DNA from: a virus
Length of the DNA stretch: 64,000 bases
Reading direction: 5' to 3' (one strand)
IMG/VR virus record: IMGVR_UViG_3300008952_001755
Span: 1-64,000 of that record
In this document: positions 12,923 to 60,632 of the stretch, piece by piece
Position numbering within the stretch: the first letter of the stretch is position 1
Layout: every line of letters starts with the position of its first letter
Position numbers and translations under genes: made by a program
Notes under the pieces: model-generated
Seen by the model: only the letters and a program-made list of their open reading frames with translations
Told to the model about the DNA's origin: nothing
Databases searched by the model: none

Positions 12923-13595
12923 GATAACATAATGCATCCCAACTAATAGGAAACAATTCAGACATAATTTTTCCAATAGCCCTGGCGTACTCCTGTGTCT
13001 CCCATTGAGTATGCTCTTCTGTCCTAAGTTTATATAGGTGATGCCACCCGAGGAGGGTGCCTGTAGTAACCGTTGTGGTAAACATAGCTTGAGGAAGAAC
13101 CATTCTAGCTTGTTCTGGGCAGACACCTAGCTCAAGCATTGTATTATAGGTAGCTGCTGCCTTACAATAAAGAGCATCTACCTTATCATCTACAAGAATA
13201 GCGTCATCATTTGATAAACCCCCTTCTATACTCCCCTGCTTTATGTTGAGGGGTCTCTCCCGCCACTCGTTAGCCATAGGGTAATAAAAATCTGGGTCAG
13301 AATCAATGTACCGTCTTGATACTTCACTCCAAGAGAACCCTACTTGGTGCTTACCTAACTGACGCAGTACAAAAAGAGGAGCATGGATGCGTAAAGTACA
13401 TACAGGGTGGCGAAACGGGAGAAAGTGTCCATGTTCTGCCAAGTAGTTGATAAGTTTCCCATCTTTATCAGGATCATAGCTCTCATGTTCTTTATCAAAG
13501 GAACACCTCGCTGCATTTACTACTAGTAAATCTCCGTCTTCTGTGTGGCTCATCAATTCAACTGAACCTTTATATAATATATGTTTTACTTCCAT
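12906..13595 (-). CDS. thyX: Flavin-dependent thymidylate synthase
   Basis: A 229-residue ThyX. The signature region is RQLGKHQVGFSWSEVSRRY (78-96), the phage-style variant of the canonical RHRxxSxNExSxRY motif, with KHQ in place of RHR. The C-terminal half has RMVLPQAMFTT (the catalytic-domain arginine and LP motif) and LGWHHLYKLR, where the ThyX fold binds dUMP and FAD. It methylates dUMP to dTMP using methylene-tetrahydrofolate and FADH2. It lies directly downstream of the polymerase gene with a short overlap and complements nrdJ. Confidence 0.92.
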   Translation of the reverse strand: MEVKHILYKGSVELMSHTEDGDLLVVNAARCSFDKEHESYDPDKDGKLINYLAEHGHFLPFRHPVCTLRIHAPLFVLRQLGKHQVGFSWSEVSRRYIDSDPDFYYPMANEWRERPLNIKQGSIEGGLSNDDAILVDDKVDALYCKAAATYNTMLELGVCPEQARMVLPQAMFTTTVTTGTLLGWHHLYKLRTEEHTQWETQEYARAIGKIMSELFPISWDALCYHEEII

Positions 13596-14677
13596 AATAC
13601 AGGGACTCCATTTTCAAACTGAACTTCTTTACCATCACCAAAAGACTTGCCAACCTCTGCGTCAATCGCAAGAGGCACATCAAAATGGATATTAAAAATC
13701 TCCTTGATCTTAGGGTAATTAACCATTTCATCGTAGAGGATAGTGAGTGTATCTTTCACCTCTTCTTGAGGACAAACAATCTCAATCGAGTCATGCACCG
13801 TAGCTACTGGCTTGGCTTGGAGTCCTGCCTCCTTGAAGCGTTCCGAAGCTCCTAGGAGAGAGGTCAGGAGTATGTCAGAGGCTGCACTCTGGATAGTAAA
13901 GTTTAGCCCCTGTCTTAGTGCCCTGTTAACGACCGAACGATCCCTGCTACCCACATCAGGTAGGTTACGCTTGCGCCCAAAAATAGTATAAGCATACCCA
14001 TTATTTTTAATGAAGTTATTAACAAATTCCATGTAGGAAAAGATTCCAGGATAAACATTTTCATAGTCTCTAATAATTTTCTCTGCTCGGCGCATAGGGA
14101 TGCCCACAGTCTCACTCAGATTAAAAGCTCCTCCACCATAGACGATTAGGAACGAAACCGTCTTAGCAATCTGGCGTTCCTGCTTACTAATTTTTTCTTT
14201 ATTGAACAGCAACCTTGCGGTGTAGGTATGGAGATCTGCCCCTTGGTTGAATGCCAGTTGCATATTACCTTCCTTCGCAATATGAGATAGCACCCTCAGT
14301 TCCATGGCTGCGTAATCCGCAGCAATAAATGCCCAGTCCCCAGGGGCTCTGAAAAGGCTCCTAATGTTGTTCTTAGTTTCACGGGGTAAAGTATGGAAAG
14401 ATACTCCCATCGCTTTCTGAGCGTTGTACGCAGCGCATGAGAGCCTTCCTGTGGAAGTACCGTCAAAGCGGAAGTCCACGAAGACTTTATTCTTCTCATT
14501 ATACGCAATAGCATTCTTAGTTCCCTCAATGTAAGTCTTGGTGAGCTTCTCAGACTTACGGAGATCCAACAGACCTTTCAGGAATTTCTTAGCTTCTTGA
14601 AGTTCTTCTGTTGTCTTGGAAGCAACAACAGACTTGCTTATCTTTTTCCCTTCGTCTCTATGTTGCCACTTAGACAC
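13586..14677 (-). CDS. Family A DNA polymerase, palm/fingers part (third fragment)
   Basis: A 363-residue polymerase domain. TSTGRLS (~75-80) precedes motif A with Asp121 (AADYAAMELRVLSH), motif B R168-x3-K172-x3-F176-x3-YG (RQIAKTVSFLIVYGGG) and motif C VHDS (Asp296). The two metal-binding aspartates are present. Motif C reads HDS rather than HDE. F176 corresponds to E. coli Pol I Phe762. The start is GTG (14677), overlapping the stop of the middle fragment by 8 bases, so translation is coupled or the frame is shifted there. Exonuclease and thumb sequences are encoded separately upstream. It is the replicative polymerase candidate; no family B gp43 is seen in this window. Confidence 0.9.
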   Translation of the reverse strand: MSKWQHRDEGKKISKSVVASKTTEELQEAKKFLKGLLDLRKSEKLTKTYIEGTKNAIAYNEKNKVFVDFRFDGTSTGRLSCAAYNAQKAMGVSFHTLPRETKNNIRSLFRAPGDWAFIAADYAAMELRVLSHIAKEGNMQLAFNQGADLHTYTARLLFNKEKISKQERQIAKTVSFLIVYGGGAFNLSETVGIPMRRAEKIIRDYENVYPGIFSYMEFVNNFIKNNGYAYTIFGRKRNLPDVGSRDRSVVNRALRQGLNFTIQSAASDILLTSLLGASERFKEAGLQAKPVATVHDSIEIVCPQEEVKDTLTILYDEMVNYPKIKEIFNIHFDVPLAIDAEVGKSFGDGKEVQFENGVPVLWK

Positions 14678-15149
14678 GCTTCTCTAGCTCCGCATCAATA
14701 TGTTCAAGAAGTAGTTTAAGTGTGGGGGCAGACACAGATGGTTTACCTTTGGCTGTTTTGTCAGGGGGATATAATCCCATAGCATTTTCTCTGGTGTAAA
14801 GAATTTCAATAAGGTCGTTGTTAGAAGAGAGGTTGTCTGTTTTTGTTACCCCTTTACAGGTGTATAGGAAATCCTCCTCGTCCATGTTAGTAGTTCGTAA
14901 CTGCTTCCCAACGGAATCAAGGGTATCCATGTCAACATCCAACCCATTATACTCCATCTCTGCGAAAGTTTCAAGAGAGGGCATAACAACACCCTCTAGG
15001 AGCTTCATTACGGGCTCGTCCCCTAGCCTCTCCATGATGAGATCGAACAGCTTGAGGGTGAAGTAGGTATCCATCGCGTTGCCCTCACAGCAATCGGATA
15101 GATCCATGTTAGCCCAATCGAATTTTTTAGGATTGTCTATGGTCAGCAT
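14670..15149 (-). CDS. DNA polymerase middle fragment: Exo III end of exonuclease plus thumb
   Basis: A 159-residue fragment. It opens with the segment that in intact polymerases follows Exo II: KKFDWANMDLSDCCEGNAMDTYFTLKLFD. It contains the Exo III aspartate (Asp27 in NAMDT), but the tyrosine usually four residues before it is Gly23. The rest (VVMPSLETFAEMEYNGLDVD ... LSSNNDLIEILY ... SAPTLKLLLEHI) is the linker and thumb region. Alone it has no active site. It must work with the UDG-exonuclease fragment (16144-17166) and the palm fragment (13586-14677). The start ATG has no Shine-Dalgarno and lies 2 bases from a CTATTATATAG box. Confidence 0.82.
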   Translation of the reverse strand: MLTIDNPKKFDWANMDLSDCCEGNAMDTYFTLKLFDLIMERLGDEPVMKLLEGVVMPSLETFAEMEYNGLDVDMDTLDSVGKQLRTTNMDEEDFLYTCKGVTKTDNLSSNNDLIEILYTRENAMGLYPPDKTAKGKPSVSAPTLKLLLEHIDAELEKRV

Positions 15150-15151
15150 AG

Positions 15152-15162
15152 CTATATAATAG
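15152..15162. promoter_or_regulatory. CTATATAATAG box between divergent genes (candidate late promoter)
   Basis: The near-palindromic 11-mer lies between the start of the polymerase middle fragment (minus) and the cargo-like gene (plus). Similar boxes occur at 17169, 18301 and 21374. For the plus gene the layout (box, ~8 bases, AGGGG ribosome site, ATG at 15183) fits a short-leader T4-type late promoter. For the minus gene the box is too close to the ATG to allow a normal leader. Confidence 0.35.
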
Positions 15163-15182
15163 AACCACTAGGGGTGATTTTT

Positions 15183-16166
15183 ATGAACGAATACGAAAGA
15201 ATAGGAGAATCTATCTGGGATACCTATAGAAGTATTGGTGCTGTTTTAACTGAAGCTAGACGCATGACTAGAAAAGAACTTAAAGATGTAGCTACTGAAG
15301 TTCATGGGACTACCGAAGAACCAAGTAAAATTGCTGCTGGTGCGGGGTATACTCCTAAGAGAACAAAAAAAGAAACTAGACGAGCGGAAAAGCGTGGAGC
15401 CACTCCACTATCCAAGGAAGATGTTGCTGGAATGTCCTCAGCAGACCTAGCACAAAATATTAAACCTGGAATTAGAGGCCAAGCTAAACTCGTAGGAAGA
15501 GCTATAAAACAATGGCCGAAGAGAGGATACCTACAAAATATTCCTAAGATGGTAAGGACAATGAAAAGAGATCCTGGTGAATTCCCAGCGGCAGTTTCCT
15601 TTTCAGCGGATCAAAGAACAGAAGGACAACCTGGGCACAAAACTAAGGCTAGACCTACTGCCGTTACGGGAAGAACTAGATTGGCTGTAGCGAGTACGAC
15701 AGGTAAGGAAGCTCATGGTATAACTCTGCCATCAGAACGCTACGCAAGAAGCGCAGAAAGGCATAAAGACTGGGTTGATTCTGGGGGGAAGGCAAGAAGA
15801 GAAGCACAACTCGCAGCTAAAGGTAAAAAGTTAAGGGGACAAGACCCTAGAAATGAATCAGTTTTGAATACCTATAGAAGTATTGGTTATCTTATAGCTG
15901 AGATTGCTAGAGTGCCCAACCCCGAAGAACCTAAAGGGAACCCCAGAGTTTGGTCTGATGAGGAAAGAGAAGCGAGAAAGAAAAAGAGAGCGAAAAGGAA
16001 AAGTTTTGATGATGTTGTGAAACCCCCAAAACCCCCCGCAGCAAACCAACAGGTTCCTGGTATGTTTAATGTAGCTGGCGGTGTTAAGAAGTTTAAGGAT
16101 TGGATTAAAAGAAAACTGTCTGGGAATAGCACCGAAGATGAACCTAAAGATCCTCCAACTCGTTAG
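15183..16166 (+). CDS. Basic protein with two capsid-targeting-like motifs, inserted in the polymerase locus
   Basis: I choose ATG 15183, preceded by AGGGG at good spacing (a GTG at 15174 is in frame). The 327-residue product is very Lys/Arg/Ala-rich with little predicted structure. Two copies of one motif stand out: TYRSIGAVLTE (14-24, followed by AR) and TYRSIGYLIAE (230-240, followed by IAR), backed by a 20-base exact DNA repeat. The motif resembles the T4 internal-protein targeting peptide (TYQEFIAEA) and ends in L/I-x-E, the T4 prohead-protease cleavage pattern. I infer an internal head protein cut by the gp21-like protease. It lies on the strand opposite to the polymerase and separates two of its fragments; its 3' end overlaps the UDG-exonuclease fragment by 23 bases. 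Confidence 0.65.
   Translation: MNEYERIGESIWDTYRSIGAVLTEARRMTRKELKDVATEVHGTTEEPSKIAAGAGYTPKRTKKETRRAEKRGATPLSKEDVAGMSSADLAQNIKPGIRGQAKLVGRAIKQWPKRGYLQNIPKMVRTMKRDPGEFPAAVSFSADQRTEGQPGHKTKARPTAVTGRTRLAVASTTGKEAHGITLPSERYARSAERHKDWVDSGGKARREAQLAAKGKKLRGQDPRNESVLNTYRSIGYLIAEIARVPNPEEPKGNPRVWSDEEREARKKKRAKRKSFDDVVKPPKPPAANQQVPGMFNVAGGVKKFKDWIKRKLSGNSTEDEPKDPPTR
15220..15239 (+). repeat. 20-base direct repeat, copy 1 (encodes the targeting-like motif)
   Basis: ATACCTATAGAAGTATTGGT is found here and again exactly at 15868-15887, 648 bases on and in the same reading frame (both encode TYRSIG). The flanking codons differ, so the repeat marks either a recent duplication of the motif or strong conservation of this piece. 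Confidence 0.85.
15868..15887 (+). repeat. 20-base direct repeat, copy 2
   Basis: Exact copy of 15220-15239, encoding TYRSIG of the second targeting-like motif (residues 230-240) in the same gene. Confidence 0.85.
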
Positions 16167-17166
16167 CGAAGTAAAGTTTAGTAAGATCCATCAAACTCTT
16201 AGGCATATTCTCATCCAGTAAGTGATGCATGATCTTAGTGTCCCACACATTCTTAGTGTAAATCCCATAATTAATCAAGAACTTTAGGTCAAACTTAGCG
16301 TTGTGGAATACCTTCTTGTTCTTTGGGTTCTCTAAGATGCGGCGAAGAATAACCCAGACCTCTGCGTAGTGGGGTTCCCCCTTCCTAAACGGACTGTCCT
16401 TATGATCCAGGGGGATAACCCAGGTCTGATCCTTTGAAGTAAAGGAGATCGTCATAATACTATCCTTCAAGAAGTTCAGCCCTGTAGTCTCTGTGTCGAT
16501 TGCTATTGTCTCATACGAATTTTTTAGCTTTAGACCTAATTCCTTAACCTCTTCGATCTTAGTGAGGACCTTGTAGGTAAAGTTCCCGTCAACTGTTTTG
16601 CCAAGTACATATTTTTCATACGCATTTTGAATGTCTGTTCTGAACAAGGCTGTGTGACGAGGCTCTTTAATACAGGAGTAAGGATGAAAAAGAGGCACAA
16701 CGATGCAGCGATGCCCATTAGCAGTAGTGAATTCATAAGATTTCCCTCTCTTATTTGTGATGCCACTCTTCTTGATTAGCATCTTCATAGCTAGATTTCC
16801 ACAAGGGAATACCAGCTTGGGTTTTACTTTGTCTATAGTCGCTTCTAGATGGTTGCGACACAGGCCCATATTTGTTGGAGTCATGTCTGCTTCTCTAACC
16901 GAAGGACACTTAACAGACGCAGCCATCTTATAGTTCTCCTTATAGCAATCATCAATTAAAGCTATCTCAACTTTTGAGAAAGGAGATATAGTTCCAAGTC
17001 TATAGTTAAGTGAATCAGAGAGAAACAAAACAGGAGCTTCTTCAAGATCCTCATAGTCCATGACTGAATGACAGGGTTTACTTTTCTCCAGAACGGAACA
17101 CCCCTCACATAAAGGATTATCCCCATGGGTTTTGTGTCCTGCGTACAATTTATCAAGATCGAACAT
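16144..17166 (-). CDS. Uracil-DNA-glycosylase-like domain fused to polymerase 3'-5' exonuclease (first fragment)
   Basis: A 340-residue protein in two parts. Residues ~10-190 form a family 4-like UDG domain: Cys20, Cys23, Cys87 and Cys103 have the C-x2-C ... C-x15-C spacing of the iron-sulphur cluster in family 4 enzymes, and HPYS (161-164) matches the conserved HPS motif. The usual water-activating loop (GEAPG) is not recognisable (FLSDSLNY), so glycosylase activity is doubtful. Residues ~200-340 start the DnaQ-like exonuclease: Exo I DTETTGL (224-230) and Exo II HNAKFD (288-293). The protein stops after LTKLYFANELEDL, before Exo III, which is encoded in the fragment at 14670-15149. UDG-like domains fused to family A polymerases are known in phages such as SPO1. 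Confidence 0.88.
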   Translation of the reverse strand: MFDLDKLYAGHKTHGDNPLCEGCSVLEKSKPCHSVMDYEDLEEAPVLFLSDSLNYRLGTISPFSKVEIALIDDCYKENYKMAASVKCPSVREADMTPTNMGLCRNHLEATIDKVKPKLVFPCGNLAMKMLIKKSGITNKRGKSYEFTTANGHRCIVVPLFHPYSCIKEPRHTALFRTDIQNAYEKYVLGKTVDGNFTYKVLTKIEEVKELGLKLKNSYETIAIDTETTGLNFLKDSIMTISFTSKDQTWVIPLDHKDSPFRKGEPHYAEVWVILRRILENPKNKKVFHNAKFDLKFLINYGIYTKNVWDTKIMHHLLDENMPKSLMDLTKLYFANELEDL

Positions 17167-17168
17167 GG

Positions 17169-17177
17169 CTATAATAG
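17169..17177. promoter_or_regulatory. CTATAATAG box between divergent genes
   Basis: The box lies 2 bases from the minus-strand ATG at 17166 and 3 bases from the plus-strand ATG at 17181. Neither gene has a Shine-Dalgarno at normal spacing. It matches the boxes at 15152 and 18301; function as a bidirectional late promoter is inferred only. Confidence 0.35.
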
Positions 17178-17180
17178 GGT

Positions 17181-17528
17181 ATGAAAAATCATTACATAGA
17201 TAACAAGAGATTTGAAGAGATCATCCTATTATACCAGCAAGACCCAGAAACTTACGAGGATGATCTAGTTTCTTTATTTGATCTATTGATCACCAACATA
17301 ATTGAATCTTTTAGATTCAAGGTAGATCCTGATGATGCGAAGCAAGAATGTTTCGCCTTAGTTCTCAAGACTGTTAAAAACTTTAAGCCTAGGAAGGGAA
17401 CAGCGTTCAACTATTTTACAACCATCGTAATCAATAATCTAAAATTGATGTACACTAGGGACAAAAAATACAGGCAAAAAATCGACAACTATATCGAAAG
17501 AAAGAAGGATGATTTTATACAACCCTGA
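17181..17528 (+). CDS. Sigma-70 region 2-like protein, gp55-like late sigma candidate
   Basis: A 115-residue protein. Residues ~48-95 (DPDDAKQECFALVLKTVKNFKPRKGTAFNYFTTIVINNLK, in parts) follow sigma region 2: an acidic D-x-x-QE start of helix 2.1, then K/R-F-x-P-x-K-G-x-x-F-x-x-Y/F for 2.3-2.4. T4 gp55, the late sigma, has the same layout (IADGIEASIKGLHNF, then HAYITQACFNAFVQRI) but is longer (185 residues). No region 4 is present, as in gp55, which recognises only the -10 TATAAATA box. I infer a late-transcription sigma for the phage. It lies alone on the plus strand; its 3' end overlaps the opposite gene by 14 bases. Confidence 0.6.
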   Translation: MKNHYIDNKRFEEIILLYQQDPETYEDDLVSLFDLLITNIIESFRFKVDPDDAKQECFALVLKTVKNFKPRKGTAFNYFTTIVINNLKLMYTRDKKYRQKIDNYIERKKDDFIQP

Positions 17529-59384: not shown

Positions 59385-59390
59385 TCCTCG

Positions 59391-60632
59391 TTAATATGTA
59401 GTGATTCCTTTAGGTTGATAGATACTTTCCTCAGATGGGGTCTCTACAGGAGTTGGGTTAGCTCCACCCCCTGCTAAATGAATCTCGCTTCCATCCATAT
59501 TTATTACTCCTTCTGATTTTACTTCTATAGAATTACAGTCAAGACTAAACTTTCCAGTCTTCATCCTAATCTCCTCATCTGCATTAATATTAAGACTTCC
59601 TCCTTCTGCATTCAAAGTAATATCTCCCACAGTTTTTATAATAATACTTCCATCTGTTCCTTTAGTTTCTATCTGAATTACTTGTCCAGTATTCTTTCCT
59701 TCTGGGTCTAAGCATTGAATAAATATTCTTCCTGCTCCTGCGCCCCCCAATGTTAATACATTCACATCCCTCCACTTACTTTGAATATTAACACTACCCT
59801 GATTAACATCATCTCCCCACTCAACATCATTTGCAAAATTTAGAAGTTGTAACTCACGCCCATCTTTAGCTACAACAACATCTGTTTGAGAATGACTAAC
59901 TAATCTTTGGGGTCCCTGTGTATCAACCAAGAAAGCTCTATCTGGAACACCCATACCTGCTCCAGCCATGGTGTCCCCCCCAGGCGTACTAGTAAGTTTC
60001 ATTATACTACCATTTCCACTATCGAAAACTATAGAATCAATAGCAGGACTATCATTTAAACTAATACTTTTATTTGCAGGTGATTTTAAAGTTGTGTATT
60101 TATTAATAGCACCCCTGCTATCAGGTGTGGGGGTTTCATCTAGGTGCTTTATCTGGCGAGGTGACATCGTAATACCCGCATCCTCATATTGACCTAGTGC
60201 TAAGTGCTTTGATCTACTCGTACCTGGGGCGTAATCGTTAGCTATAACAAGTCCTTCCCCCTCTATACCAGTTAAGAGAGGAGACCCAGGCCCTCCCCTA
60301 CTCGATTCGGGTGTTCCCGTAGAAGGAGGTCTTGATAAAGGTGGGGTCCGAGCATCAAGTATTCCATCACCCGTAGTTTGCCTAGGCTCAGGACTGAAAG
60401 TAGAGCCCATATAATACCACGAATCGGAACAAGAAGGTCTAATAACGATTACTTCAACCCCTACCTCAGGTACTGCTATAAACGCACCCTCTCCATTAGA
60501 GGCATAAGGGCTAGTATACATAACTGTCATTTCAGAACCACCTAGAGCGAAAATTCTTGCTACAAATGATCCATTTTCACTCACATTTGTACGATCTGTA
60601 ACTTCTGCTAAAGATATTAGTTGTTCAGCCAT
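59391..60632 (-). CDS. 5: Baseplate hub/spike protein (gp5-like), no lysozyme domain
   Basis: The start is ATG 60632, with an AGGAGG ribosome site 9 bases upstream; an earlier in-frame start is not needed. 413 residues. Residues ~1-95 form the OB-type gp5 N-terminal domain (VSENGSFVARIFALGGSEMTVMYTSPYAS in parts, then VPEVGVEVIVIRP). The C-terminal ~180 residues form a triple-stranded beta-helix with repeats such as GSIIIKTVGDITLNAEGGSLNINADEEI, which is the spike. T4 gp5 carries a lysozyme domain between these; none is seen here, only a Pro/Gly/Thr-rich link. The spike tip is probably the PAAR-CARDB protein. It overlaps the hub gene by 8 bases. Confidence 0.85.
   Translation of the reverse strand: MAEQLISLAEVTDRTNVSENGSFVARIFALGGSEMTVMYTSPYASNGEGAFIAVPEVGVEVIVIRPSCSDSWYYMGSTFSPEPRQTTGDGILDARTPPLSRPPSTGTPESSRGGPGSPLLTGIEGEGLVIANDYAPGTSRSKHLALGQYEDAGITMSPRQIKHLDETPTPDSRGAINKYTTLKSPANKSISLNDSPAIDSIVFDSGNGSIMKLTSTPGGDTMAGAGMGVPDRAFLVDTQGPQRLVSHSQTDVVVAKDGRELQLLNFANDVEWGDDVNQGSVNIQSKWRDVNVLTLGGAGAGRIFIQCLDPEGKNTGQVIQIETKGTDGSIIIKTVGDITLNAEGGSLNINADEEIRMKTGKFSLDCNSIEVKSEGVINMDGSEIHLAGGGANPTPVETPSEESIYQPKGITTY

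Follow-up and report, generated by a model that had tools for sequence, protein, structure and literature searches.

Replicative DNA polymerases in separate pieces are known from phages as scattered two-piece cases, mostly linked to homing endonucleases or suspected introns. The polymerase of Aeromonas phages 25 and 44RR is made as separate chains, 43A and 43B, with a gene or spacer at the junction, and the gp43 halves of Aeromonas phage 25 co-purify and show polymerase activity (PMC2988022). The OM43 phages MEP401 and MEP402, also marine, have a split family A polymerase with a small ORF between the pieces; the split is common to most of their group, and an intron was suspected by the authors (PMC10580990). 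Two Lactobacillus plantarum phages have a split DNA polymerase gene (PMC6669764). The nrdA of Aeromonas phage Aeh1 is a further essential replication-related enzyme that is encoded in pieces and keeps its activity (PMC2988022). The locus described here differs from 43A/43B, which is a family B polymerase in two pieces with a seg endonuclease or an untranslated spacer at the junction, and from MEP401/MEP402, which has two pieces cut inside PF00476 and an intact exonuclease. Aeh1 nrdA is another enzyme, and its insert is the homing endonuclease mobE.

Rhodothermus phage RM378, proposed as a parallel in the first-pass annotation, presumably encodes its exonuclease apart from the polymerase. The separate exonuclease gene stands as a likeness, but the analogy is a loose one. 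By size the annotated RM378 polymerase genes resembled a similar three-way split, but profile searches found no detectable homology to any of the three pieces described here, and the RM378 exonuclease gene p024 belongs to the family B exonucleases (PF03104, 2.7e-14). RM378 was rejected as a true relative.

The single-chain UDG-like/exonuclease/family A polymerases of PHROG 17, such as those of Lysinibacillus phage LysYB1, Pseudomonas phage SM1, and Caudoviricetes sp. ctfzr933, have the same domain order and are homologous along the whole length. They differ in being one ORF, in keeping the Exo III Tyr, and in typical motif A and motif B sequences. No named phage with the same split and no nucleotide match to the locus was found in the phage collection, and no three-piece polymerase with a divided exonuclease site was found in the open-access literature searched. 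The present case is a whole T4-like lineage with a three-piece family A polymerase, an exonuclease site spread over two proteins, and a fixed cut.

The window is a 64 kb stretch of the 71,360 bp record of an uncultured virus. It comes from a T4-like phage and encodes a gp23 capsid protein, S77 prohead protease, tail sheath, and DnaB-type helicase, as well as a gp32-like SSB, NrdA, an SbcD-like phosphoesterase, and ThyX. The gp23 is 30–31% identical to the best named phages among the matches listed, and the lineage is therefore distant from cultured phages. Nearly all window genes lie on the minus strand. The polymerase locus consists of three minus-strand ORFs in different frames, named exo, mid, and pol, and their coordinates were confirmed. 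The features of the locus are as follows.

16144–17166, minus strand: exo, 340 aa, with a UDG-like domain (approximately residues 1–190) and the Exo I/Exo II part
14670–15149, minus strand: mid, 159 aa, with Exo III and the thumb
13586–14677, minus strand: pol, 363 aa, with fingers and palm and motifs A, B, and C
14670–14677, minus strand: overlap of the mid stop and pol start, 8 nt, GTGTCTAA, GTG over TAA
15174–16166, plus strand: insert (cargo) gene between exo and mid, 330 codons from GTG
16144–16166: tail-to-tail overlap of exo and the insert gene, 23 bp, 3’ ends of both genes
15152–15161, minus strand: TATTATATAG element, located 2 nt ahead of the mid start in the spacer that mid shares with the divergent insert gene
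17169–17177: CTATAATAG/CTATTATAG palindrome, between exo and a divergent sigma-like gene (17181–17528)

Exo matches the Pfam families UDG (1.4e-6) and DNA_pol_A_exo1 (2.6e-22), the latter over profile positions 2–129 of 173, so that its C end is cut short. Pol matches DNA_pol_A (PF00476) at 8e-77, with 259 bits against a cut-off of 34.3. The Pfam search with mid returned no match. Against PHROG 17, annotated as DNA polymerase, exo aligns with positions 525–785 (2.3e-41), mid with 794–931, and pol with 924–1239. As profiles, exo corresponds to positions 6–136 of the Klenow fragment chain and mid to positions 161–292 (E 2.6e-7), which places the cut after the Exo II segment and ahead of the Exo III segment. 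These matches uphold the first-pass description of a family A polymerase in three pieces that is cut inside the exonuclease fold, with Exo I and Exo II on exo and Exo III on mid. The PHROG 17 and Klenow matches also place the middle fragment in the polymerase and not in another protein.

A scan of IMG/VR gave 80 loci at 69–100% pol identity, to which a second scan added more. The comparison set is composed of 66 distinct loci in which exo, mid, and pol are all present; the phages of this lineage are T4-like, uncultured, and largely marine. The position of the cut is identical in all 66, of which 33 have no insert, 33 have an insert, and none are fused. When the ORFs of the clade loci were searched with profiles, none held more than one piece. 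The same three-piece layout in 66 distinct loci is far beyond chance, and the split is a trait of the lineage, not an accident of the window genome.

The exo C end reads EL(E/K)xL or a close variant across the 66 loci, and the mid N-terminus is MLxI or MLxV, followed two residues later by (N/D)P. The spacing of the Exo II and Exo III aspartates, summed over the two chains, is exactly 74 residues in 66 of 66 loci; in fused homologues it is 65–107, with a median of 69. Judged by this spacing, no residue is lost at the exo/mid cut. The free ends of exo and mid have kept their length, a sign that they may still pack against each other. In loci without an insert, exo and mid overlap by 1 nt as TAATG, or as TGATG in one locus. 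At the mid/pol junction the 8-nt overlap is the commonest form among relatives, and the rest have ATGA, other overlaps, or short gaps. One locus (L033:9590–9957) has mid in two frames, 92 aa followed by a shift, from a sequencing error or real decay.

The exonuclease site has four carboxylates spread over two chains. Asp224 and Glu226 (Exo I) and Asp293 (Exo II) are on exo, and the fourth, Exo III Asp27, is on mid. D224 and E226 are found in 64 of the 64 loci with the residue present, and D293 and mid D27 in 66 of 66; the four DEDD metal ligands thus show no variation where present. At the position of the Exo III Tyr, four residues before the Asp, mid has Gly23 in all 66 split loci, and 38 of 38 fused homologues with this position aligned have Tyr. 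This change, found in every split member, was missed by the first-pass annotation. The mid N24 is kept in 66 of 66. The split clade accordingly has the four acidic ligands of a Pol I type (DEDDy) exonuclease and lacks its Tyr. In several other polymerases, changing the Exo III Tyr reduces exonuclease activity (PMC4559173); by analogy, proofreading in the split clade may be slower, or another group may take the place of the Tyr.

The catalytic Asp of motif A and that of motif C are each present in 66 of 66 loci, which supports the first-pass statement that the metal-binding aspartates of the polymerase are kept. Motif B (R..K...F...YG) is also complete, with R168, K172, F176, Y180, and G181 in 66 of 66. 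The window pol has DYAAMELR as motif A, KTVSFLIVYGG as motif B, and VHDS as motif C. The split clade has motif A DYxAMELR, compared to DxSQxELR typical of fused forms, and motif B KTVSFLIVYGG, compared to KAVNFGxLYGM; motif C in split forms is VHDS. The changes SQ to AM in motif A and NFG to SFL in motif B are nearly fixed across the split clade.

With the fused polymerase of Caudoviricetes sp. ctfzr933 as lead sequence, an alignment search retrieved 80 homologues. The search for uninterrupted relatives succeeded outside the clade, where 76 full-length single-ORF homologues were found (five named phages counted in), but not within it, where four viral scans and one genome scan found no fused close relative. 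The 76 fused ORFs contain the exonuclease and palm, and nearly all of them also the thumb and the UDG-like part. No fused form was found closer than approximately 30% identity over the palm. In a palm phylogeny built from 65 split and 23 fused sequences, for which no root was inferred, the split forms make up one side of a single branch with an SH-aLRT of 100 and a stem of 4.28 changes. Since the 76 full-length homologues outside the clade are single ORFs, the split appears to be derived. A single origin from fused ancestors is the simplest reading of this unrooted tree with its long stem.

Pairwise dN/dS is mostly about 0.03–0.11 for each piece, with most values close to 0.05, with and without inserts, by a simple counting method under which several pairs are saturated at synonymous sites. 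Each piece is by this measure under strong purifying selection. Nine large records (up to 130.6 kb) have one DNA_pol_A match and one mid each. No family B polymerase (DNA_pol_B) or DNA polymerase III alpha was found in these nine records, all of which may be fragments, with another polymerase possibly beyond them.

The AlphaFold model of exo is composed of a UDG-like domain and an exonuclease core, and its fold matches family 4 UDG and the Klenow exonuclease. Modelled alone, exo has a disordered C end (residues 311–340, pLDDT 31–36), and mid gives a poor model with a mean pLDDT of 58. Both would agree with folding on assembly; the single-chain models were built from alignments of 18 rows only, and their low confidence is no proof of a need for partners.

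A Shine-Dalgarno sequence lies in the last exo codons before mid in 27 of the 33 loci without an insert and is absent before mid in 30 of the 33 loci with one. The sequence ATATAG or ATGTAG is present no more than 14 nt before the mid start in 26 of 33 insert loci, compared to 0 of 33 loci without an insert. In the five motif-less insert loci with a listed insert (L041, L045, L054, L059, and L078), the ORF adjoining mid is co-oriented with it. The element is a candidate promoter of the divergent cargo gene, or may act in both directions and start mid as well. In 53 of 53 loci exo lacks a Shine-Dalgarno sequence, and a TATWATAG-like element is present just upstream of it in most loci. This palindromic, CTATWATAG-like element is located 2–8 nt before the exo ATG and could be a two-way promoter giving a leaderless mRNA; in the window it falls within 17166–17181, between exo and a divergent small sigma-region-2 gene. 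The case for promoter motifs comes from comparison across loci; within the window alone, neither the motif before mid nor that before exo is clearly commoner than chance.

The inserts of the 33 loci are 150–2400 bp long, varied in content, and on either strand. Insert presence changes 14 times on the split tree, and at least seven of these changes are forced by well-supported branches; the exo/mid junction thus often gains or loses cargo. The inserts listed encode mostly basic opposite-strand proteins and also lipoprotein-like proteins and small co-oriented ORFs. Pfam recognised a glycosyltransferase in L049 and a 2OG oxygenase in L078. The latter locus (L078:8289–10001) has inserts at both junctions: the 2OG-Fe(II) oxygenase separates exo from mid, and a further 588 bp separate mid from pol.

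The window insert gene likely has its real start at ATG 15183, behind AGGGGTGA. Its protein contains two TYRSIG..(L/I)xE(A/I) repeats and has no named-phage match in the phage collection. Repeats resembling ESIWxTYR..(L/I)xE(A/S/G) are present in this gene (15174–16166) and in the insert genes of L007, L009, L015, L025, L033, L040, L048, and L056, whose products are mostly basic. A hydrophobic-x-E-small motif is found in 15 of 20 opposite-strand insert proteins, most of them net basic, compared to 3.4 expected by shuffling; the motif was picked after looking, and the 20 proteins are partly homologous and not all independent. The capsid-targeting sequences on basic internal proteins of T4 end in gp21 sites (PMC9026906). 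The signature expected of such proteins is a short N-terminal peptide that closes with (L/I)xE ahead of a small residue, on a protein that is basic once mature, in a genome with a gp21-type protease. The insert motif resembles these sites, and the window genome encodes an S77 prohead protease. The resemblance is a lead only. The window cargo is a probable capsid-internal protein, with targeting suggested by sequence, and the polymerase junction may be a swap site for injected or internal head proteins.

The locus very probably encodes a functional replicative family A polymerase of three polypeptides, with an exonuclease site completed in trans and a junction that tolerates insertion. Exo, mid, and pol would assemble into one enzyme, in which exo brings three of the four carboxylates along with the UDG-like domain, mid brings the fourth and the thumb, and pol brings the fingers and palm. 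The first cut would correspond to a variable loop of the exonuclease fold that connects its Exo II part to its Exo III part, and since it falls inside that fold the site could be completed only in trans. That the pieces probably assemble, as first proposed, gains support from the conserved cut, the constant 74-residue sum, and the invariant carboxylates at the split site, with the co-purifying gp43 halves of Aeromonas phage 25 as a precedent. Without an insert, the three genes would form a translationally coupled run through TAATG with the Shine-Dalgarno sequence in the exo end and through the 8-nt GTG..TAA overlap. With the break already there, the exo/mid junction would tolerate gene insertion and has gained or lost cargo many times, the window cargo being a divergent gene.

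Two other readings concern the role of exo. The exonuclease may be weak or dead, as no member keeps the Exo III Tyr, and exo may have lost proofreading and become mainly a UDG-like or structural subunit, with mid and pol as the real polymerase. The somewhat faster evolution of exo than of pol in several pairs also fits, but the four carboxylates, including the Exo III Asp of mid, are invariant and the length at the split site is constant; this reading is judged unlikely, though it deserves some weight. Proofreading could instead be detachable, with a core of mid and pol reversibly joined by the exo/UDG subunit and the Tyr-less Exo III site existing only in the complex. This is a rather improbable suggestion. 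If true, the error rate could follow the relative expression of the separately promoted genes, and cargo between exo and mid would shift the expression balance.

The remaining explanations concern the break itself, and the three-polypeptide enzyme is preferred to each. The first-pass annotation attributed the division to the inverted gene. Such a gene, or an earlier homing endonuclease, could have recently split an intact polymerase in the window lineage, a route by which Aeh1 nrdA, and probably also T4 gene 60, came to be divided (PMC2988022). The identical cut without an insert in 33 of 66 relatives refutes the present insert as its cause, and this cut, the single old origin on a long stem, and the absence of any recognised homing endonuclease among the inserts listed make a recent split very unlikely. 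An ancient mobile element, since lost, is a possible first cause. Joining of the pieces by RNA or protein splicing, with the pieces as exons or exteins around an intron or intein, would have precedent in the group I introns of related Bacillus phage UDG-exo-pol genes (also cited in PMC10580990). It is given hardly any credence: searches of the window, of the insert region (E ≤ 1), and of eight loci with an insert gave no Rfam match, the inserts vary in content, size, and strand, a stop and start separate exo and mid even in genomes without an insert, and the minus-strand frame after exo closes at once, which leaves no in-frame intein. Programmed ribosomal frameshifting at both overlaps is suggested by the stop/start overlaps (TAATG and GTG..TAA) of many genomes, but it is impossible over inserts of 150–2400 bp, and loci with such inserts are scattered across the tree. 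Stops close the downstream frame 3–22 codons upstream of mid in loci without an insert and 2 codons upstream of pol in most loci, and the open stretch before mid has no slippery heptamer, so frameshifting is equally hard to credit. At the second junction, for which coupling or frameshifting had been proposed, coupled translation of mid and pol is retained and frameshifting is dropped. Three frames and an inverted gene also resemble a broken locus when seen once. An assembly error or pseudogene has almost no probability left, because many separate contigs share the layout across 66 distinct loci, the pieces are under strong purifying selection, and this is the sole polymerase found.

The clade is a natural setting in which to ask if a single catalytic site can persist across two chains over long evolution, and it illustrates how a gene break, once made, can turn into a recurrent site of gene gain. 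Virome surveys that count polymerases as single ORFs may miss or misread the split clade.

One clade member (L082/L075; QCKN01000003.1, 130,604 bp) is a contig of the Prochlorococcus single-cell genome AG-409-P03. The gene psbA, sought as a sign of a cyanobacterial host, was found in none of the nine large records, so that the contig only suggests Prochlorococcus as a possible host. In the window, approximately 1.2 kb (59385–60624) is without a long minus-strand ORF amid tightly packed minus-strand genes, and this segment is possibly a broken gene or an unusual reading.
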